From an uncultured Opitutaceae bacterium (GTDB lineage Bacteria; Verrucomicrobiota; Verrucomicrobiia; Opitutales; Opitutaceae), in assembly GCA_903929355.1 (NCBI GenBank), contig CAIYUN010000018.1, forward strand, positions 1 through 64,000: a stretch of DNA of 64,000 bases, given 5' to 3'. Positions 16,573-44,009 of this stretch are shown one piece after another. The first letter of the stretch is position 1; each line of letters begins with the position of its first letter. A program made the translations under genes and the position numbers. The notes under the pieces are model-generated. The model made no database searches, was not told the origin of the DNA, and worked only from the letters and a program-made list of their open reading frames with translations.

Positions 16573-17472
16573 CTAAAAAAGCTCCGCCGGATATTCCCCC
16601 CGGGCGTGCAGCTCCGCGAGCGCGGCCTGCACGCGCGGCTTGTCCTCGCGGTAGGTCACGCCGAACCAGGTCGCAGTGGTCGGCCGCACCTGCACCTCGG
16701 CGGTGCCGGCCTCGATCTGCGCCGAGACGGCCTCCGGCAGGTAGAATTCGGCCTTGGGCGCGGGCCCCCCGCCCCCCTTCTCCTGCAAAAACGCGGAAAG
16801 CTGTTTTTCCAGGCGGGGGAAAATCTCCGGTGTGAACGCCCAGCAGTTCATCGAAACCGTCTCCTCGCCCGTGAACTCGCGGCCCGGTCCCACGTCCCCG
16901 GGGCGCAGGTTTGTGCGTTCGGTCACCCGGACGAGGTGGCCGTCCGACCCCACCGTGCACACGCCGCGCGCGACCGCCCCGTGCGCGGAGAGGGTGTGGG
17001 CCAGACGGTAACCAATCATACAGAATTGCGGATTGCGGATTGCGGATTGCGGATTGGCGGAGAAATAAGCGGCGAGTTGGACGAAGGCGTCGCGGCCGAA
17101 GAAGTCGTCGGCGCCGATGACGGCAAACGGACCGCTGAGGGCGGCGCGCGCGCACCAGACCGCGTGGCCGGTGCCCCAGGGCTTTTCGCGGCCGGCCGGG
17201 ACGGTGAAGCCCGGCGGCAGCGCATCCAGTGATTGAAACACGCAGTCCACCGCCAGGTGGGGCGCGTATTTGGCGGCGACCCGGGTGCGGAACTCCGCCG
17301 CGAACTCCTCCCGGATGACAAACACCACCTGCCCGAAGCCGGCGCGTCGGGCGTCGAACACCGCGTAATCGAGCAGGATCGCCCCCGCCGGCCCGACCGG
17401 GTCGAGCTGCTTGAGCCCGCCATAGCGGGAGCCGAGTCCGGCGGCAAGGACGAGCAGGGTGGGCACAGGCAT
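16573..17472 (-). CDS. Sugar-phosphate nucleotidyltransferase-like protein
   Basis: A 299-residue protein of the NDP-sugar pyrophosphorylase-like fold. The N-terminal nucleotide-binding motif is LVLAAGLGSRYGGLKQLDPVGPA (shown in parts: LAAGLGSRYGG, KQLDPVG), followed by ILLDYAVFDA and the metal-binding-type GADDFFGRDAF near residue 115. These enzymes activate sugar phosphates for envelope or capsule synthesis; the exact sugar is not evident. Between residues about 139 and 149 the protein contains NPQSAIRNPQ, encoded by four exact copies of a heptanucleotide (17028-17055). It looks like an insertion, since it falls just before a conserved-looking CMIGYRLAHTLS strand. Start at 17472 fits the family. 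The 3' end is about 140 bases from the M16 gene on the same strand. Confidence 0.85.
   Translation of the reverse strand: MPVPTLLVLAAGLGSRYGGLKQLDPVGPAGAILLDYAVFDARRAGFGQVVFVIREEFAAEFRTRVAAKYAPHLAVDCVFQSLDALPPGFTVPAGREKPWGTGHAVWCARAALSGPFAVIGADDFFGRDAFVQLAAYFSANPQSAIRNPQFCMIGYRLAHTLSAHGAVARGVCTVGSDGHLVRVTERTNLRPGDVGPGREFTGEETVSMNCWAFTPEIFPRLEKQLSAFLQEKGGGGPAPKAEFYLPEAVSAQIEAGTAEVQVRPTTATWFGVTYREDKPRVQAALAELHARGEYPAELF
17028..17055 (-). repeat. In-frame heptad array inside nucleotidyltransferase gene
   Basis: Four exact GCGGATT units (AATCCGC on the coding strand), with a further degenerate half unit on the left. Three units make 21 bases, so the array adds whole heptapeptides (SAIRNPQ) without breaking the frame. 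Confidence 0.85.
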
Positions 17473-21530: not shown

Positions 21531-22292
21531 ATGACTGCGCCCCCCCTGTCACCGTCCGTCCCGCGCGCCGTGCGTCCTCCCGGGGCCTTGGTGATCGACA
21601 TCGAGGGCGTGACCAAGCTCTACCCCATGGGGATGGAGACGATCCATGCCCTGCGCGGGGTCGCGCTCCAGATCTGCCGCAACGAATACCTCGCCGTGAT
21701 GGGCCCCTCCGGCAGCGGCAAGTCCACGCTGATGAACATGCTCGGCTGTCTCGACACGCCGACGGCGGGACACTACGAGTTCAACGGCCGCGATGTCGCC
21801 CAGATGGATGACGACGAGCTCGCGGGCATCCGCAACCGCGAGATCGGCTTTGTCTTCCAGACCTTCAACCTGCTGCCGCGCTCCGACGCGTTGCGCAATG
21901 TCGAGCTGCCGCTGATTTACGCCGGGGTGGCGCGGTCCGAGCGGCTGGATCGCGCGCGCGAGGCCCTGGAACATGTCGGCCTGGGCGACCGGGTGTATCA
22001 CCGGCCCAACGAGCTCTCCGGCGGCCAGCGGCAGCGCGTGGCGATCGCGCGCGCGCTGGTCACCCGGCCCTCCATCATCCTCGCCGACGAACCCACCGGC
22101 AATCTGGACTCGAAAACCGGGGTGGAGATTCTCGCGCTGTTCGAGCGCCTCTACGAGCAGGGCCAGACGCTGATTGTTGTGACCCATGAGGAGGACGTCG
22201 CCCGGCACGCGCGCCGCATCGTCCGCCTGCGCGACGGCCTGGTCGAGTCGGACCAGACCAATGAGGAGTCTGGAGTGCGGGGCGCGGAATAA
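21531..22292 (+). CDS. MacB/LolD-type ABC transporter ATP-binding protein
   Basis: A 253-residue ATPase of the MacB/LolD/FtsE group. It has Walker [11 protein letters not shown]-loop [10 protein letters not shown], signature [15 protein letters not shown], Walker [17 protein letters not shown] and switch VVTHEED. In MacB the ATPase is fused to the membrane domain; here it is separate, as in many bacteria. It starts 25 bases after the adaptor. The last codons (ESGVRGAE) lie in DNA with GGAGTGCGG-like sequence that resembles the reverse of the heptad repeat filling the following spacer, so the C-terminus may have been replaced by repeat sequence. Confidence 0.93.
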
Positions 22293-22313
22293 AGCCCATC
22301 GTCCGCCTCCGAC

Positions 22314-22395
22314 CCTTCCGCATTCCGCAATTCTGCAATTCCGCTTCCGCCCATTCCGCACTCCGCAATCCGCAATCCGAATTCCGCCATTCCCC
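22314..22395 (+). repeat. Heptad repeat array before first permease
   Basis: About 80 bases made of degenerate ATTCCGC/ACTCCGC/AATCCGC units with a 7- or 8-base period, running directly up to the ATG at 22396. It stays open in the frame of the permease, where it would read RTPQSAIR. There is no Shine-Dalgarno sequence in it. Confidence 0.8.
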
Positions 22396-23640
22396 ATGCG
22401 CTTTCTTTATGAGCTGACCGAGAGTGTGCGGATCGCGTTTGCGCAGATCGCGGCCCACAAGCTCCGCTCGGCGCTGACCGCGCTGGGGGTCATCATCGGC
22501 ATCGTGGCGGTCACGCTGATGGGCACGGCCATCGCCGGCATCAACGCCGGGGTGGATCGCAGCCTGGCGGGCTTTGGCGACGACGTGTTCTTTGTCTCGA
22601 AGTGGCCGTGGCGCGACGTCAGCGACTGGTGGAACTACCGCAACCGCCGCAACATCCTGATCACCTACGCCAAACCGATGAACGAGTGGATCGCCGCCCA
22701 TCCCGACGGCCCGTTGAAGCTCGCCGTGCCCGACGCCAACACCATGACCACGGTCGTGCATGGCGACTACCGGGTGGACAACATCTACCTGATGGGGACC
22801 TCCGCCGACTATGTCCGCATCGCCCGCTCGGACCTGAAGGAGGGCCGGTTTTTCAGCGAGCCGGAGTCCCAGTCGGCGGCCAACGTCGTCGTCATCGGCT
22901 ACGATGTGGCCGACGCGTTGTTTCCCGGGCGATCCTCGCTGGGAGAGACCCTGCGCGTGGGCGGCCACCTCTTCCGCGTGGTGGGGGTGGCCGCGCGGCA
23001 GGGCAGCTTCCTCGGGCTGTTCAGCTGGGACTCCATGGTACTGATGCCGCTCCCCATCTACCGCCGCTATTTCATGTGGAACGACGCGGGCGAGCTCCGG
23101 GTGCAGGCGGATGTGAAAAGGATGGGGGAGGCGAAGGAGGAGCTGCGCGGCCTGATGCGGCGGGTCCGCCAGCTCGACCCGGCGGTGCCGGATGACTTCG
23201 AGCTGAATGAGCAGGCGACGATCCGCGCCCAGCTCGACCCGATTGAGTACGGCATTGCGATCGGCGGGCTCTTCATCACGGGCCTGGCCCTGTTTGTGGG
23301 GGCGATCGGCATCATGAACATCACCTTTGTGAGCGTGAAGGAGCGCACCCGCGAGATTGGCACCCGCAAGGCGCTGGGCGCGCGGCGGCGCACCATTTTG
23401 CTCCAGTTTCTGATCGAGGCGGTGGCGATCTGCCTCGTCGGCGGGCTGCTCGGGCTGGGGCTGACCGGCGCGCTCGCGGCCCTGGTGTCCGCCCTGGCCC
23501 CGAGTTTCCCAGTGGCCTTTCCCTTCTGGCTGGTGCTGCTGGCGCTGGGCGCGGCGGTGACCACCGGCGTGGTGAGCGGCTTCGCCCCCGCCTGGAGCGC
23601 CAGCAAGCTCGACCCCGTGGAGGCGCTGCGCCATGAATGA
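22396..23640 (+). CDS. MacB-like ABC transporter permease 1
   Basis: A 414-residue FtsX/MacB-type permease. The N-terminal transmembrane helix (LRSALTALGVIIGIVAVTLM, residues about 18-37) is followed by a periplasmic MacB core domain of about 230 residues. Three closely spaced C-terminal helices end it (GGLFITGLALFVGAIGIMNI; VAICLVGGLLGLGLTGALAAL; LVLLALGAAVTTGVVSGF). The cytoplasmic loop SVKERTREIGTRKALGARRR is a diagnostic signature, as is the ending PVEALRHE. It works with the upstream ATPase and adaptor. The start lies at the end of a heptad array and has no ribosome-binding site. Confidence 0.92.
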   Translation: MRFLYELTESVRIAFAQIAAHKLRSALTALGVIIGIVAVTLMGTAIAGINAGVDRSLAGFGDDVFFVSKWPWRDVSDWWNYRNRRNILITYAKPMNEWIAAHPDGPLKLAVPDANTMTTVVHGDYRVDNIYLMGTSADYVRIARSDLKEGRFFSEPESQSAANVVVIGYDVADALFPGRSSLGETLRVGGHLFRVVGVAARQGSFLGLFSWDSMVLMPLPIYRRYFMWNDAGELRVQADVKRMGEAKEELRGLMRRVRQLDPAVPDDFELNEQATIRAQLDPIEYGIAIGGLFITGLALFVGAIGIMNITFVSVKERTREIGTRKALGARRRTILLQFLIEAVAICLVGGLLGLGLTGALAALVSALAPSFPVAFPFWLVLLALGAAVTTGVVSGFAPAWSASKLDPVEALRHE

Positions 23641-23682
23641 AGTGCGGAGTGCGGAATGTGCAAACCTTGAACCCTGAACCAA
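23641..23682 (+). repeat. Heptad repeat array before four-helix-bundle gene
   Basis: The 42-base spacer after the first permease reads as 7-base units: AGTGCGG, AGTGCGG, AATGTGC, AAACCTT, GAACCCT, GAACCAA, ending at the ATG at 23683. The first units are the reverse orientation of the ACTCCGC type. Confidence 0.7.
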
Positions 23683-24129
23683 ATGAACAACGAGGAACTG
23701 AAACAAAGAACCAAAGCCTTTGCGCTGCGAGTGATTCGGATGAGTGAGGCGCTGCCGAAGAAAATGACGGCCGACGTGCTGGGCCGGCAGATCGTGCGCT
23801 CGGCCACCTCGGTGGCCGCAAACTACCGCTCCGCCTGTCGGGCAAAATCGCGCGCCGACTTCGTCGCCAAAATGGGTCTGGAGGAGGAGGAGGCTGATGA
23901 GTCGTGCCTCTGGCTGGAGCTCATCACCGAATCCGGCCTTCTTCCTCCGGAAAAAACCTCCGCCCTGCACGCCGAGGCCGGCGAACTCACCGCCATCGCG
24001 GTCGCCTCAATCCGCACCGCGCGCACGGTCCGCCCCACTCCGCACTCCGCAATCCGCACTCCGCAATTTCCCCCTTCTGCTTCCGACCATTCCGCACTCC
24101 GCAATCCGCACTCCGCAATTCCAAAATGA
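23683..24129 (+). CDS. Four-helix-bundle (23S rRNA IVS-like) protein with repeat-encoded tail
   Basis: Residues 1-115 match the four-helix-bundle family first described from 23S rRNA intervening sequences and related to Avd, the accessory protein of diversity-generating retroelements. Family hallmarks are FALRVIRMSEALPK, VLGRQIVRSATSVAANYRSA, the K-S-R-A-D-F motif and the helix EEEADESCLWLEL. Residues after about 118 are entirely encoded by a heptad DNA repeat (PTPHSAIRTPQF, then DHSALRNPHSAI). The TGA stop overlaps the ATG of the next permease (ATGA). The gene interrupts the two-permease export operon and is unlikely to work in export. Its function is unknown; the association with heptad repeats is notable. 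Confidence 0.88.
   Translation: MNNEELKQRTKAFALRVIRMSEALPKKMTADVLGRQIVRSATSVAANYRSACRAKSRADFVAKMGLEEEEADESCLWLELITESGLLPPEKTSALHAEAGELTAIAVASIRTARTVRPTPHSAIRTPQFPPSASDHSALRNPHSAIPK
24036..24125 (+). repeat. Heptad array forming the tail of the four-helix-bundle gene
   Basis: Two sub-arrays of ACTCCGC/AATCCGC units (about 24036-24068 and 24090-24118) separated by TTTCCCCCTTCTGCTTCCG. The second sub-array closely matches 22343-22378 in front of the first permease. The array is coding for the gene it ends, and runs up to the ATG at 24126. Confidence 0.85.
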
Positions 24130-25355
24130 CTTTCTGGGAGACCTTGCGCCTCGCCTTTGCCGCGCTCGCCGCCAACAAGCTGCGTTCGGTGCTCACCATG
24201 CTCGGCATCTCCGTCGGGGTGTTCTCGGTCATCGGGGTGATGACGGTCATCAGCGGGCTGCGGGCGTCGATTGAGTCGGGCATGAGCACGCTCGGGGCCA
24301 ACACGTTTCAGATCGGCAAGTATCCCTCGCTCACCTTCAGCCGCAACGCCCGTTCGCTCTATGCCAACCGCCGTGACATCGACTACCCGGAGGCCACGCG
24401 TTTCAAGGAACTGATGGCGGGCGGGGCGGCCGTCTGCCTCCAGCTTTCGCGCGGTGGCATCACCGCCGCCTATCTCGACCGCAAGACCAACCCCAACGTG
24501 TCCCTCATCGGCTCCGATGAGAATTACGCCGCCAACCTCAGCTATGACCTCGCCTCCGGCCGCAACCTGGAGTCCGGCGATGTCGAGCTGGGCCGCCCGG
24601 TGTGCGTGATCGGGGCTGATTTGGTGGCGCAGCTCTTTGCGGACGAAAACCCGCTCGGCCACATCCTGCGGCTCGGGGGGCAGAACTACACCGTCGTCGG
24701 CACCCTCGCCGCCAAGGGCACCGCCTTCGGCCAGTCCCAGGACAACCTGCTGGTCACGCCCCTCACCCGCTGGCTGGAGATCTACAGCCGGGCCGGCCGC
24801 TCCATCAAGATCAGCGTGCAGGCGGCCAGCGCGCCGGCGCTGGCCGCGGCGCAGGAGCAGGCGGTCGGGGCGATGCGCCTGGTGCGGGGTCTCCAGCCGG
24901 AGGACGCCAACGACTTCGAGCTGACCTCCAACGAATCGATGATCGCGGCCTTCAACTCCATCGCGGGGGTGGTGGCGGTCGGGGCGTTTGTCGTCAGCGC
25001 CATCGCGCTCGTGGCCTCGGGCATCGGGGTGATGAACATCATGCTCGTCAGCGTGACGGAGCGGACGCGCGAGATCGGCATCCGCAAGAGCATCGGGGCG
25101 CGCCGGCGGAGCATCCTCGTGCAGTTTTTGCTCGAGGCGGTGACGCTGTCGCTCATCGGCGGGGTGACGGGCATCGCGGCGGGGGTGGTCGCCGGCAACC
25201 TCGGCGCGCTGGTGATGCACTACGCGCTCATCTTCCCGTGGGGCTGGGCCCTGACGGGCCTGCTGGTGTGCGGCTTCATCGGCGTCACGTTCGGCCTCTA
25301 TCCCGCCTGGAAGGCCGCCCGCCTCGACCCGATCGAGGCCCTGCGGCACGAGTGA
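24126..25355 (+). CDS. MacB-like ABC transporter permease 2
   Basis: A 409-residue second MacB/FtsX-type permease with the same architecture as the first. It has an N-terminal helix (LTMLGISVGVFSVIGVMTVI), a periplasmic core, and three C-terminal helices, with the signature loop SVTERTREIGIRKSIGARRR and the ending PIEALRHE. Two non-identical permeases with one ATPase suggest a heterodimeric transporter. The ATG overlaps the stop of the four-helix-bundle gene (ATGA), so translation is probably coupled to it. The stretch before the ATG is a heptad array without a Shine-Dalgarno sequence. Confidence 0.92.
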   Translation: MTFWETLRLAFAALAANKLRSVLTMLGISVGVFSVIGVMTVISGLRASIESGMSTLGANTFQIGKYPSLTFSRNARSLYANRRDIDYPEATRFKELMAGGAAVCLQLSRGGITAAYLDRKTNPNVSLIGSDENYAANLSYDLASGRNLESGDVELGRPVCVIGADLVAQLFADENPLGHILRLGGQNYTVVGTLAAKGTAFGQSQDNLLVTPLTRWLEIYSRAGRSIKISVQAASAPALAAAQEQAVGAMRLVRGLQPEDANDFELTSNESMIAAFNSIAGVVAVGAFVVSAIALVASGIGVMNIMLVSVTERTREIGIRKSIGARRRSILVQFLLEAVTLSLIGGVTGIAAGVVAGNLGALVMHYALIFPWGWALTGLLVCGFIGVTFGLYPAWKAARLDPIEALRHE

Positions 25356-32100: not shown

Positions 32101-32149
32101 TGAATTCCGCACTCCGAAATCCAAAATCCAAAATCTAAAATCCAAAATC
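32101..32149 (+). repeat. Heptad repeat array in the metH spacer, block 3
   Basis: Seven units of exactly 7 bases: TGAATTC, CGCACTC, CGAAATC, CAAAATC, CAAAATC, TAAAATC, CAAAATC. It ends 4 bases before the TTG start of the second metH gene and provides the in-frame stop (TAA at 32136) that separates that gene from the upstream sequence. Confidence 0.85.
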
Positions 32150-32153
32150 TGCT

Positions 32154-34937
32154 TTGACCCAATCCGCCTCCAGCTTCCTCGTCATTGGTGAGCGCACCAA
32201 CATCACCGGCTCGCCCAAGTTCGCGAAGGCGTTGAAGGCGGGTGACTGGGACGCGTGCCTCGCCATCGCGCTGCAGCAGGTCGAGAGCGGGGCCAACGTG
32301 ATCGACATCAACGTCGACGAGGCGCTCATCGACGGCGAGGCCACGATGACCAAGTTCCTCAACCTCATCGCCGCCGAGCCCGACATCGCGCGCGTCCCGG
32401 TGATGGTGGACTCCTCCAAATGGAGCGTGCTCGAGGCCGGCCTGCGCTGCCTGCAGGGGAAGGGCATCGTCAACTCCATCTCGCTCAAGGACGGCGAGGC
32501 CGAGTTTCTTCGCCGCGCCAAACTCGTCCTCCGTTACGGTGCCGCCGCCGTGGTCATGGCCTTCGACGAGCAGGGCCAGGCCGCCACCCGCGACGAAAAG
32601 GTCCGCATCTGCACCCGCGCCTACCAGCTCCTCACCCAGCGGATCGGCTTTCCGCCCACCGACATCATTTTCGACCCCAACATCCTCACCGTCGCCACCG
32701 GCATCGAGGAGCACAACAACTACGCGGTCGATTTCTTCGAGGCCACCAAGCTCATCAAGGCCACGCTGCCCCACGCCAAGGTCTCCGGCGGGGTGTCCAA
32801 CGTCTCCTTCTCCTTCCGCGGCAACAACCCGGTGCGCGAGGCGATGCACACCGCTTTCCTCTACCATGCGATCCGCGCCGGCATGGACATGGCCATCGTC
32901 AACGCCGGCATGCTCGGCGTCTATGCCGAGATCGAGCCGGAGCTGTTGCAGCTCGTCGAGGACGTGCTCCTCAACCGCCGGTCCGACGCCACCGAGCGCC
33001 TCGTCACCTTCGCCGACGAGCTCAAGGCCGCGGAGACCGCCGCCAAGGCCGGGGGCACCGGCGCGGTGGCCGCGGGGCCGGCGGCCGCCAAGGACGCCTG
33101 GCGCTCGGCCCCCGTCGAGGAGCGCCTCAAGCATGCGCTCGTGAAAGGCCTTGACGCCCACGTGGACGCCGACACCGAGGAGGCCCGCCAGAAATACCCG
33201 CGCCCGCTCGACATCATCGAGGGACCGCTGATGGACGGCATGCGCGTCGTCGGCGACCTCTTCGGCGCGGGCAAGATGTTTCTCCCCCAGGTGGTCAAGT
33301 CCGCCCGCGTGATGAAAAAATCCGTCGCCTACCTCACGCCCTTCATGGAGGCGGAGAAGGAGGCGGCCCGGCAGCGGGCGCTGGAGGAGGCCGCCCGGAA
33401 TCCATCGCTCAAGGCCGAGGCGGTCCGGCCGCAGTCCGCCGGTCGCGTCATCCTCGCCACCGTCAAGGGCGACGTGCATGACATCGGCAAGAACATCGTC
33501 GGCGTCGTCCTCGCCTGCAACAACTACGAGGTCACCGACCTCGGGGTTATGGTGCCGTGTGAAAAGATCCTCGCCGCCGCGCTGGAAAAGCAGGCCGACA
33601 TCATCGGCCTCTCCGGCCTCATCACCCCCTCGCTCGACGAGATGGTGCATGTCGCCAAGGAGATGACGCGGACGAAAATGACGCTGCCGCTCCTCATCGG
33701 CGGCGCGACCACCAGCGCCAAGCACACTGCGGTCAAGATCGCCCCCGAATACGCCGAACCCGTCGTCCATGTGCTCGACGCCTCGCGGGTCATCGGGGTC
33801 GTGAGCGCGCTGCTCTCCGCCGGGCAGAAGCCCGCCTTTGCCGCCGAGAACCTGGCGCGGCACGAGCGCCTGCGCGCGGAGTTCGCCGCGCAGCGTGGCG
33901 CCCGCAAGTTGCTCGCCCTCGCCGAAGCCCGCGCCCGCCGCCAGCCCACCGACTGGGCCACCGTGGACATCCCCACCCCCGAGTTCACCGGCACCCGCAT
34001 CTACTCCTCCGACCCCACTCCGCACTCCGCACTCCGCACTCCGCATTCCATCGAGCGTCTCACGCTCGATGAAATGGTCCCCTACATCGACTGGGGTCCG
34101 TTCTTCTCCGCCTGGGAGCTGCACGGCCGCTTCCCCGAGATCCTAAAGGACCCGGTCGTCGGCGAGGAGGCCACCAAGCTCTACGCCGACGCGCAGACCA
34201 TGCTCGCGCAGATCGTCGCCGAAAAACGCTACACCGCCCGCGCCGTCATCGCCTACTGGCCCGCCAACGCCGTCGGCGACGATGTCGAAATCTACACCGA
34301 CGCGACCCGCACCAAAGTCCACGCGACCTTCCATTTCCTCCGCCAGCAGGGCGAGAAGCCGGCGGACCAGTTCAACCACTGCCTCGCCGATTACATTGCG
34401 CCCAAGGACACAGGCCGCGCCGACTGGCTCGGCGGCTTTGCCGTGACAAGCGGGCATGGCGTCGAGGATTTTGCCCGGGAGTTTGAGGCCAGGCACGACG
34501 ACTACGGCGCGATCATGGCCAAGGCGCTCGGGGACCGGCTGGCCGAGGCCCTCGCCGAGCTTATGCACAAGCGCGCCCGCGACCTCTGCGGCTTTGGCCG
34601 CACGGAGAACCTCACCATGGCGCAGATGCTCCGGGAGCAATACCGCGGCGTCCGCCCCGCGCCCGGCTACCCCGCGTGCCCCGACCACACCGAGAAACGC
34701 CTCCTCTTCGACCTGCTGGAGGCGGAGGCCGCCACCGGCATCACGCTCACCGAGAGTTTTGCCATGACCCCGCCCAGCGCGGTGAGCGGCCAGTATTTCA
34801 ACCACCCCGACGCCAAGTATTTCGCCGTCGGCAAGCTCGGCCGCGACCAGGTCGCGGACTACGCGCAGCGCAAAGGCACGCCCCTCGCCGAGGTGGAGAA
34901 ATGGCTCGGCCCGTATCTGGATTACGATCCGGCCTGA
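32154..34937 (+). CDS. metH: Methionine synthase part 2: folate, cobalamin and activation domains
   Basis: A 927-residue product with the remaining MetH modules. The pterin-binding domain begins [20 protein letters not shown]. The cobalamin cap and B12 domain have the axial-ligand motif [20 protein letters not shown]. The reactivation domain shows [20 protein letters not shown] and [20 protein letters not shown]. The start must be the TTG at 32154: an in-frame stop lies 18 bases upstream, and no ATG or GTG precedes the conserved FLVIGERTN block. There is no Shine-Dalgarno sequence. Between the B12 and reactivation domains the protein contains [18 protein letters not shown], encoded by an in-frame heptad DNA array. 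An expanded Ala/Gly-rich loop ([18 protein letters not shown]) lies in the cap region. Confidence 0.96.
34017..34044 (+). repeat. In-frame heptad array inside metH part 2
   Basis: Four exact ACTCCGC units followed by ATTCCAT. It is translated as two copies of the heptapeptide SALRTPH in the linker between the B12 and reactivation domains. Confidence 0.9.
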
Positions 34938-42458: not shown

Positions 42459-44009
42459 ATGAAAATATTTCCCGTCCTCCCCCGCGTCCTGTGGACCCTG
42501 CTGCTCGCCACCGCCGTGCCCGCCGCCCTGGCGGCGGGCAACGCGCCCGCCTCCGCCCCGGACCTCGCCAGCTCGCAGCTCTACGCGGACCTCGCCGCCG
42601 CCACCCGGCAAAACGAACAGCTGAAGGCCGCGCTCGCCGAAACGCAGGTGCGGCTCTCATTGCGCGAAGGCGACCTCGCGGGCCTCAGCCGCCAGCTGGC
42701 GGCACTCACCGCCGCGGCCGGATCACCCACCGCCGCGACTGCCGGCCTGAAAACGGAAATCGACCAGCTCCAACAGGAGCTGGACCAGGCCCGCGCCGTG
42801 GCGGCGGCCCAGGCCCAAGTCGCGGCCACCTCGCCCGCCCCGTCCGTGGCGGCCCCGGCGAACCCGCTCCCGGCCCCCGCGCCCGAACTGGCCCAGCTCC
42901 ACCAAGACCTTGATCAGGCCCGCGCGGCGGCGGCCGCCGCCCAGATTGCTCAGGCGGACCTGCAGAGCCAGCTGCAGCAGGCGGGCAAACAACTTGCCGA
43001 CGCCCAGGCCCAGCTCGCCGCCGTCCGCTCCGCCCCGCCGGCCCCCGCCCCTTCCGCCGAACTGGCGCAGCTCCATCAGGAGCTGGACCAGGCCCACGCG
43101 GCGGCCGCCGCCGCCCAGATTGCGCAGGCGGACCTCCAGAACCAGCTGCAGCAGGCGGGCAAACAACTCGCCGACGCCCAAACCCAGCTCGCCGCCGCGC
43201 GCACCGGCCCCGACGAGGCCAAGGCGCTGGCCGCCGAACGGGACGGGTTGAAGGAGCACCTGGCCTCGCAGCAGGCGCAGATGGACCGGTTGATCGCCGA
43301 GCTCGCCGCCGTCCCGCCCAAACCCGAGCCGGCCGACGCGGCCGCCCCGCCAGCCCCTCCGGCCCCGACCACGGCGCGGGACCAGCAGCTCGCCGACGCG
43401 AACGAAAAACTCACCGAAGTACTGCGGGCCTTCACGCTCCAGCAAACCGAGCTCGACCGCGTGAAGACCATGCTGGCCGACACCGACGCCGCCCGGGTCA
43501 CCGCCACGGACCAGCTCGCCGCCGCGAGCAAGACCACCGACGACCGCGCGGCTGCCCTCACCGGGGTCCAGCAGGATCTCGCCGCCCAGCGCGCCACCAC
43601 CGCGACCATCGCAGGTGAGCTGGCGAACGTCCGCGAGCAGCTCCGCCTCGCCCAGGCAACCGCCGAGGCGGCGACCGCCGAGAACCAAGACTTGAAAACC
43701 CGCCTCGCGCTCGCCGGTGGACCCATGGCCACGAGTCCGAACGGGGTGACCCTGCCGAGCCCGGACCGCCCCGCGATGCCCCTGGTGATCGCGCCCGTGG
43801 CTGAACCGGCCCCGCCTGTCTCCGAGTCACCGGCCGTGGCCGTGGCTGAGCCGCGCGTGCATGTGGTCGCGGCGGGGGACACGCTCGGCGGCCTCGCCAA
43901 GAAATATTACGGCAACGCGGCCCGCTGGAACACTATCCTGGAGGCGAATCGCGCCCTGCTCAAGAACCCGAACGTACTCCCGCTCGGGGCCAGGCTGCAG
44001 ATTCCGTGA
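42459..44009 (+). CDS. Secreted coiled-coil protein with C-terminal LysM domain
   Basis: A 516-residue exported protein. The signal peptide (VLWTLLLATAVPAALAAG) is followed by about 420 residues of Ala/Gln/Leu-rich coiled coil with Pro/Ala breaks, and a C-terminal LysM peptidoglycan-binding domain (VHVVAAGDTLGGLAKKYYGN...NPNVLPLGARLQIP). Within the coiled coil a 58-residue unit is duplicated in tandem (from about 42884 and 43058): each has LAQLHQ(D/E)LDQA, AAAAAQIAQADLQ and QLQQAGKQLADAQ. The unit is nearly identical at DNA level, so the duplication is recent or maintained by conversion. The architecture resembles envelope-spanning scaffold or division-associated proteins. Confidence 0.88.
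   Translation: MKIFPVLPRVLWTLLLATAVPAALAAGNAPASAPDLASSQLYADLAAATRQNEQLKAALAETQVRLSLREGDLAGLSRQLAALTAAAGSPTAATAGLKTEIDQLQQELDQARAVAAAQAQVAATSPAPSVAAPANPLPAPAPELAQLHQDLDQARAAAAAAQIAQADLQSQLQQAGKQLADAQAQLAAVRSAPPAPAPSAELAQLHQELDQAHAAAAAAQIAQADLQNQLQQAGKQLADAQTQLAAARTGPDEAKALAAERDGLKEHLASQQAQMDRLIAELAAVPPKPEPADAAAPPAPPAPTTARDQQLADANEKLTEVLRAFTLQQTELDRVKTMLADTDAARVTATDQLAAASKTTDDRAAALTGVQQDLAAQRATTATIAGELANVREQLRLAQATAEAATAENQDLKTRLALAGGPMATSPNGVTLPSPDRPAMPLVIAPVAEPAPPVSESPAVAVAEPRVHVVAAGDTLGGLAKKYYGNAARWNTILEANRALLKNPNVLPLGARLQIP

Follow-up and report, generated by a model that had tools for sequence, protein, structure and literature searches.

Many S23/IVP four-helix-bundle genes lie between inverted, locus-specific heptad arrays and may form intervening-sequence-like cassettes at operon junctions

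The DNA analysed here (the window, 64,000 nucleotides) comes from an uncultured Opitutaceae bacterium whose genome assembly comprises 3.80 Mb in 91 contigs and is 96% complete. It contains a MacAB-like operon in which an HlyD-like protein and an ABC ATPase are encoded upstream of two MacB-like permeases, with a small open reading frame of the IVP (S23) family between the two permease genes. The features of this locus are as follows.

21531-22292, + strand: operon ABC ATPase (domain match), its last residues encoded by the 5' arm of an ORF-less hairpin
22272-22290, + strand: 5' arm of that hairpin at the ATPase/permease-1 junction, same heptad as the window cassette, aligning to 22353-22371 with a score of 11.5
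22353-22371, + strand: 3' arm of the ORF-less hairpin (TRF and arm alignment), within an array (22302-22397) that ends at the permease-1 ATG (22396)
22396-23640, + strand: MacB-like permease 1, upstream neighbour (MacB_PCD and FtsX domain matches)
23643-23658, + strand: 5' arm of the IVP cassette (TGCGGAGTGCGGAATG), 16/16 complementary to 24088-24103
23667-23680, + strand: second heptad, two units (TTGAACC CTGAACC), just 5' of the IVP start codon (direct reading)
23683-24129, + strand: IVP/S23 ORF, 148 aa (TIGR02436 and PF05635 profile matches, PDB 2rld match)
24036-24066, + strand: inner 3' heptad array, CACTCCG-type, within the tail of the IVP ORF (sequence and TRF)
24088-24103, + strand: 3' arm, part of the outer 3' array (about 24089-24122), exact reverse complement of the 5' arm
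24126-25355, + strand: MacB-like permease 2, downstream neighbour (domains matched on the longer ORF 23904-25355)

An earlier sequence-only reading had placed this ORF in the IVS-type four-helix-bundle family, and profile searches bear this out: the protein scores 78.3 bits against TIGR02436 (cut-off 24; model positions 2-108 of 109) and 59.2 bits against PF05635 (cut-off 33.8), and PDB 2rld is a homologue by sequence match alone (E 2e-16). In Pfam it matches only the IVP family, with no transposase or nuclease family at E 0.01, and its two NCBIfam matches are TIGR02436 and a hypothetical-protein model far under its cut-off. Avd of the diversity-generating retroelements presumably belongs to the same protein superfamily; the retroelement connection that had been drawn from this is not supported here in that, unlike a diversity-generating retroelement, the window's 96%-complete genome has no reverse transcriptase match (PF00078).

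The insert fits tightly between its neighbours. The upstream permease stop codon occupies 23638-23640 and the 5' arm begins two bases later; the outer 3' array ends shortly 5' of the downstream permease ATG, and the IVP stop (24127-24129) overlaps that ATG (24126-24128) as ATGA. The gene thus sits in the operon as first described, although it interrupts it only in the sense of lying at a junction, both permease ORFs being intact and on the same strand as the IVP gene. Arrays do flank the gene on both sides, with the correction that the two flanks are inverted copies of one heptad. Tandem Repeats Finder (TRF) reports period-7 arrays at 22316-22393 and 24036-24117. The cassette measures 461 bp from arm to arm, and in an RNA fold of 23636-24130 the arms are paired in both the minimum free energy and centroid structures (z -3.98). 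No Rfam family reaches its gathering score in the window, where the insert lies outside 16S and 23S rRNA, and scanning 15 further IVP loci (of 175) for Rfam families returned just a tRNA. The assembly of the window's genome contains no 23S rRNA.

The last ∼33 residues of the window protein, after about position 116, are indeed encoded by the 3' heptad arrays, since the ORF has no stop codon ahead of them; a 7-base repeat that contains no stop leaves every reading frame open, and the ORF therefore reads on to the TGA at the next ATG. Of 114 loci with inverted arms (defined below), 85 have the IVP stop at or ahead of the inner edge of the 3' arm, 25 have it inside the arm and four have it beyond the arm. 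A functional role for the heptad-encoded tail was thus rejected: the tail is incidental read-through and no family trait.

The window's genome contains six matches to the IVP family, one of them weak. Reading of the flanks shows that the five strong loci each have a heptad of their own, inverted across the two sides: TCAGAGG, TTAATGC/TTATTGG, GTGCGGA (the window cassette), GATTTAC and AAGTAAC. Four of these (L001-L004) pass the numerical threshold for inverted arms given below and the fifth (L005) was judged by eye. A strict lag-7 scan flagged just two of the five; arms are therefore often degenerate. Heptad arrays also occur away from IVP genes. Arrays of the CCGCAMT type are found at 40 sites in this genome, 38 of them away from any IVP gene, and of 17 sites inspected, eight are matched by an inverted copy no more than 300 bp away (scores 11.5-25; controls reach 10 at most). 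One of the eight is the ORF-less hairpin at the ATPase/permease-1 junction of the window operon, the RNA fold of which is not significant (z -1.50, with 14 of 200 shuffles as good). Across the phylum, CCGCAMT arrays are present in nine of 115 genomes, all nine of which have IVP genes, a weak association given that 81 of the 115 do. Heptad arrays occur in genomes lacking IVP genes too, and array density (8 in 669 kb from 20 genomes with IVP genes and 3 in 730 kb from 20 without) does not differ significantly (p=0.18); the stretches compared were non-random, being the opening 20 kb of each of the first two contigs, several of which were short, and for single-contig genomes the second stretch was taken further in.

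Within the window, period-7 arrays away from any IVP gene lie at 17025-17061, 32113-32149 and 34016-34049 (ATTGCGG, TCCAAAA, CACTCCG), the last in an open frame that reads through it. A 174-bp tandem repeat at 42883-43212 (1.9 copies, 88% matches) has its third + frame open, rich in alanine and glutamine.

For a family-wide comparison we collected 175 loci, selected by protein similarity and blind to their flanks: five from the window's own genome, 90 from Verrucomicrobiota (30 plus 60 stretches from about 150 places, the 60 picked by HMM score) and 80 on named contigs of other groups (the best 80 of at least 583 tblastn matches). The weak own-genome match (L006) was left out and L005, which falls below the HMM threshold, was added by hand. 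The resulting 181 IVP genes were reduced to 170 by dereplication at 80% identity and to 165 by requiring at least 120 bp on either side, 90 of these being from Verrucomicrobiota and 75 from named contigs. Arms were called inverted where the 5' flank aligned to the reverse complement of the gene's own 3' flank with a score of at least 14.

A lag-7 repeat is present in 40% of 5' and 45.5% of 3' IVP flanks, compared to 2.5% of 2582 windows at least 700 bp away. Lag 8 is seen in 9% and 7% of flanks (0.5% in the distant windows) and lag 15 in 3.0% and 2.4% (0.5%); lag 14 follows lag 7, and lags 4-6 and 9-13 show no comparable excess. Lag-7 arrays occur in either flank of 92/165 IVP genes and 27/357 other genes of the same loci, and in both flanks of 49/165 and 1/357, respectively. 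Inverted flanks were scored for 114 of the 165 IVP genes, but for only 9/357 other genes of the same loci, 1/165 when the 3' flank of another locus was substituted, 1/165 distant window pairs and 18/165 in direct orientation. At the threshold used, 51 of the 165 genes are without arms, and the arm alignments have a median of 36 columns. The inverted heptad flanks of IVP genes are thus far beyond chance, and the family-wide enrichment of heptad arrays suggested by the sequence-only reading is real.

Armed loci were recovered from Verrucomicrobiota (63/90) and, among the named contigs (the best 80 of at least 583 matches), from Bacteroidota (16/28), Bacillota (12/15), Pseudomonadota (7/9), Planctomycetota (5/6) and Acidobacteriota (3/3); the remaining groups contribute one or two loci each, some without arms. 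With one query at E 1e-5, IVP matches were found in 36 of 72,556 plasmid records and in none of 50,697 phage records. Of eight cyanobacterial plasmid loci examined from these 36 records, six are bracketed by inverted heptad arrays; two of these are near-copies of each other, carried by different plasmids of a single strain. These plasmid cassettes resemble the cyanobacterial STRRs in carrying heptad arrays, here as arms. On plasmid pANA02 of Anabaena sp. 90, the cas6 and cas4 genes of a type I-D CRISPR operon are separated by an IVP cassette (L293, 1471-1839).

The heptad itself is specific to the locus. Where both arms could be called (49 loci), the 5' heptad is the same as the 3' one in 25 loci and differs from it by no more than one base in 39; the figures for comparison are 3.5% for heptads of different loci and 3/49 in direct orientation. 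There are 59 distinct heptads among 66 5' arms, and none of nine pairs of IVP genes within the same genome share one. Pairs of IVP proteins at least 55% identical nevertheless share a heptad (no more than one mismatch) in 27 of 231 cases, compared to 6.6±2.6 upon permutation and a maximum of 19 in 2000 permutations. Heptad type therefore tracks IVP protein similarity, as fits a protein and arms that travel together. A conserved terminal inverted repeat common to all copies, as in insertion sequences or MITEs, was not found; the heptads differ by locus. The 5' arm heptads are G-rich and C-poor. In 92 loci a stop codon appears on circular reading of 0.587 of the 5'-sense heptads (0.487±0.041 for shuffled letters) and of 0.402 of their reverse complements (0.255±0.039 shuffled). 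In one Flavobacterium metagenome-assembled genome (L120, 4300-4499) the 3' array, built of ACATTATACAACA units, is strongly expanded relative to that of its relative L144 and runs to the end of the stretch examined. Recent transposition was considered for this pair and rejected, their upstream flanks being homologous.

Neighbouring genes, called with a crude longest-ORF picker, could be assigned on both sides of 156/165 IVP genes for end distances and of 109/114 armed loci for orientation and flushness. The 5' arm starts a median of 1 bp past the same-strand upstream stop codon (55/83 within 15 bp). Between the 3' arm and the downstream ORF start the median gap is 7.5 bp (57/82 within 40 bp), and the median arm-to-arm length is 473 bp. 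Of 69 co-directional loci, 41 are flush at both ends. Among flush loci the upstream stop is TAG unusually often (22/57 vs 89/424, p=0.007), as if the 5' arm sometimes supplied it. Armed cassettes between co-directional neighbours are sense in 69 cases and antisense in 13; this preference equals that of resident genes (both neighbours in the same sense in 101/156 vs 259/418) and would not be given by orientation-blind insertion.

The neighbours are diverse, with 95 Pfam families among 69 downstream neighbours and likewise 95 among 69 upstream neighbours. Those that recur (names read off the families) include glutamate synthase, succinate dehydrogenase, sugar-epimerase, leuA/isopropylmalate and BREX genes, partly because related genomes have the same junction hit, and the sdhA-sdhB junction is used in hosts as distant as the window's genome (L004) and a Mucilaginibacter contig (L146). 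Four IVP cassettes in three genomes lie inside BREX-1 pglX genes, with the PglX model matched on both sides of the insert. In L038 and L147 the first half reaches model position 290 or so and the second begins at 318; in L037 and L041 the first half ends at about 1013 and the second starts at 1025 (a recurring position, about 1005-1026). Each of the two positions is occupied in two genomes, and L037 and L147 are 2.7 kb apart in one genome, apparently in one pglX gene. The support is weaker for L062, a cassette that divides a methylase-like gene of which one half alone is matched (E 1e-8).

Comparison with related genomes shows sites without the cassette. In 11 relatives the two permease genes are adjacent without an insert, with junction lag-7 scores of 2-7 (17 in the window) and no heptad array in the 150 bp before the second permease gene; arrays left at operons of the same type in the absence of the gene, which would have counted against a tie between the two, are therefore absent at the window's junction, although exceptions exist elsewhere. 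At the sdhA-sdhB junction, occupied in the window's genome, seven same-family genomes have short array-free spacers (by eye), and of 30 sdhB loci read, one (L229, from the 22 beyond these genomes) has a heptad array beside a different ORF with no IVP gene. Two genomes carry cassettes between nuoF and nuoG; six same-family genomes lack them, and in three of the six (L238-L240) the junction has short ORF-less repeats (by eye). In L238 and L239 the repeats upstream of nuoG are, by eye, 8-base units of the ACGCCAAG type, arranged in arrays that lack an ORF and have inverted counterparts. In other Verrucomicrobiota the same junctions hold a different type of gene, read as ORF6N-like (L246, L252 and L262 upstream of nuoG, L229 upstream of sdhB). 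We considered whether these ORFs belong to the same element and rejected this, since none of the four loci read has inverted arms (L229 carries an array on the 3' side alone).

In one close pair the same site is empty in L158, which reads stop-C-ATG, and filled in L160, where an arm, the IVP gene and a second arm separate the stop from the start. This single close pair shows no visible target-site duplication (flanks 86-87% identical, 1-nt spacer). Pre-existing arrays as landing sites were also considered and rejected, in that the near empty sites (macB, sdh and L158) are array-free. L199 and L205 have flanks that are 93.6% and 91.0% identical around an arm-to-arm block that does not align, with IVP proteins that are 57% identical; in L199 the shared flanks run to within 12 bp of the 5' arm on one side and resume where the 3' arm ends on the other, and in L205 they stop 54 bp short of the 5' arm. 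By sequence comparison this is the one clean cassette swap. Other pairs (L188/L200, L169/L187 and L176/L187) align straight through at 83-84% with arms that are mutually unmatched, and L053/L155 align as far as the arms on both sides, again with unmatched arms. In 17 of 33 same-site pairs with both members well-armed, the arms fail to pair with those of the other member in either combination; these pairs are non-independent and were counted before dereplication. Mutually unmatched arms at one site indicate that the two arms change together, by either cassette swapping or concerted turnover. The gene and its arms thus form a unit with defined ends that is gained in one piece and whose complementary arms change together.

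We favor an explanation in which the S23/IVP gene and its inverted, locus-specific heptad arrays constitute an intervening-sequence-like cassette, a looped unit of ∼470 bp at stop/start junctions, and we put the probability of this at roughly 60%. The cassette would insert after the stop codon of one operon gene and ahead of the next gene's start codon, its arms arriving together with the gene, as the empty sites show, and apparently being exchanged with it, cleanly in one genome pair and possibly elsewhere, to judge by the concerted arm changes. On transcription the arms could fold the cassette into a stem-loop that brings the neighboring stop and start codons close together, and the cassette RNA would probably be cut by RNase III and tolerated as a looped-out insert, by analogy with intervening sequences (IVSs) in rRNA. 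That the complementarity acts in RNA is our preferred, albeit unproven, view because of the geometry, the sense bias and the rRNA parallel. The simplest guess from the association of protein and heptad is that the four-helix protein binds its own arms; it would probably do so with the stem as RNA or single-stranded DNA and in this way aid mobility or persistence, and this binding step and its effect are the weakest parts of the scheme. Hairpins without an ORF and solitary arrays built of the same heptads probably derive from such cassettes.

Instead, the arms could act in single-stranded DNA as structure-specific hairpins at the ends of the element, much like REPIN/RAYT or integron attC sites, such that the IVP protein or a host nuclease recognises them in a DNA-level mobile element, any RNA hairpin is incidental, and flush positions are simply the insertions that survived. 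The mismatches within the arms make this a serious rival: on the sense RNA, wobble-type (G.U) mismatches number 137 and mirror-type (A.C) 216 (p=3e-5), a bias against RNA pairing that is still present beyond 25 nt from the start codon (125 vs 178) and stands out most when the IVP gene and both its neighbours point the same way (73 vs 125). We had looked to a G.U excess as a sign of selection for pairing in the sense RNA, and the result goes against it; the asymmetry suits the opposite strand at least equally well. Occurrence in both orientations (13/82 antisense), heptads that follow protein lineage, and ORF-less hairpins that resemble non-autonomous copies (eight of the 17 sites inspected have an inverted partner) would all fit a DNA element. 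REPIN/RAYT elements and MITEs are small, intergenic and hairpin-forming, with inverted ends and ORF-less copies, and IVP cassettes share the size, the intergenic position, the inverted ends, the hairpin formation and the ORF-less copies; however, IVP arms are locus-specific heptad arrays rather than one conserved palindrome, and the protein matches no transposase family, nor a nuclease family at E 0.01. The close pair lacks a visible target-site duplication and the sense orientation is strongly preferred between same-direction neighbours. On balance we consider an element acting in DNA unlikely.

That the arrays are independent repeats, spread by slippage and template switching, where IVP genes merely landed, is improbable. 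Most CCGCAMT sites (38/40) in the window's genome do lie away from IVP genes, arrays exist in genomes without them (3 in 730 kb) and at the IVP-free junctions L229 and L238-L240, and many inverted heptad pairs are described in Xanthomonas without an S23 link (PMC4692102). Several same-site pairs have also changed both arms while the gene stayed alignable, a pattern that concerted repeat turnover could equally produce. Against these stand the array-free empty sites at macB, sdh and L158, the rarity of inverted arms at other genes of the same loci (9/357), and heptads that follow the protein (27/231 vs 6.6 permuted) and not the genome (0/9), and for armed IVP loci this explanation is already hard to hold. 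An even more doubtful proposal is that the arms are regulatory, the stem controlling translation or termination of the downstream operon gene with the IVP protein as an autoregulator. The position between stop and start would suit this, as would the inner edge of the 5' arm, which lies a median of 50 bp before the start of the HMM match and so close to the likely ribosome-binding region; but the same layout recurs beside unrelated genes (95 Pfam families on each side) and inside BREX pglX, and the cassette is absent from those near relatives of the host operon that were read.

The intervening-sequence-like cassette has its closest precedent in the rRNA IVSs. One account (PMC4990558) describes the S23/IVP family as having no known function, and rRNA IVSs as containing an S23 ORF, being bordered by inverted repeats and being cut by RNase III without ligation. 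The Coxiella burnetii IVS has an S23 ORF, a 28-bp terminal stem and a length of 428-444 nt, with tandem heptamers ahead of the ORF, the first of which is cut and the copy number of which varies by strain (PMC4990558). The window cassette likewise has an S23/IVP ORF sense to the host transcript and terminal inverted repeats that form a stem (16 bp, vs 28 bp in Coxiella); it is similar to the Coxiella IVS, as described there, in size (461 bp arm to arm) and in having tandem heptamers that adjoin the S23 ORF. Unlike rRNA IVSs, the cassettes are located between protein genes or inside pglX, and their heptads differ at nearly every locus and occupy both arms. We read the cassette as a cousin of the rRNA intervening sequences that lives at operon junctions. 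S23 ORFs are best known from inserts in rRNA genes; in the loci compared here, many bacterial groups carry them in apparently portable cassettes between protein genes.

Heptad arrays have themselves been reported as 70 and 75 inverted heptad pairs in two Xanthomonas genomes and a few in Nostoc (PMC4692102) and as TAACTGA repeats in Beggiatoaceae (PMC4679880), and repeats of the cyanobacterial hyp operon are also described (PMC2408588); the 2015 paper on Xanthomonas states that detailed literature on heptameric repeats was unavailable (PMC4692102). The IVP arms resemble the arrays of Xanthomonas and Nostoc and the TAACTGA arrays in being intergenic 7-bp arrays and, for Xanthomonas, also in forming inverted pairs. 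Neither S23 nor four helix appears in the main text of PMC4692102 or PMC4679880, and in the open-access literature that we searched no paper connects inverted heptad arms with S23/IVP genes located elsewhere than in rRNA. The gene is accompanied by its own arms, and IVP may account for most arrays; the proposal of the sequence-only reading that the protein helps to spread or maintain them is plausible. More tentatively, S23/IVP cassettes could be widespread transposase-less mobile elements of stop/start junctions, for which the rRNA IVS is merely a ribosomal niche, with ORF-less and solo remnants making up much of the unexplained intergenic heptanucleotide repeats of bacteria, including cyanobacteria, and with a protein that reads, and perhaps helps to write, its own heptad; we would not yet give this wider claim even odds.

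Tying the S23/IVP family to heptad repeats provides a cassette with clear ends and a known place of insertion, flush between stop and start, and makes the heptad stem a concrete candidate binding partner for the IVP protein. A further prediction is that looped-out inserts, now annotated as 'four helix bundle protein' or 'hypothetical protein', are present in many operon transcripts. Such cassettes could account for an orphan protein family and, at the same time, for some repeats that have long lacked an explanation.
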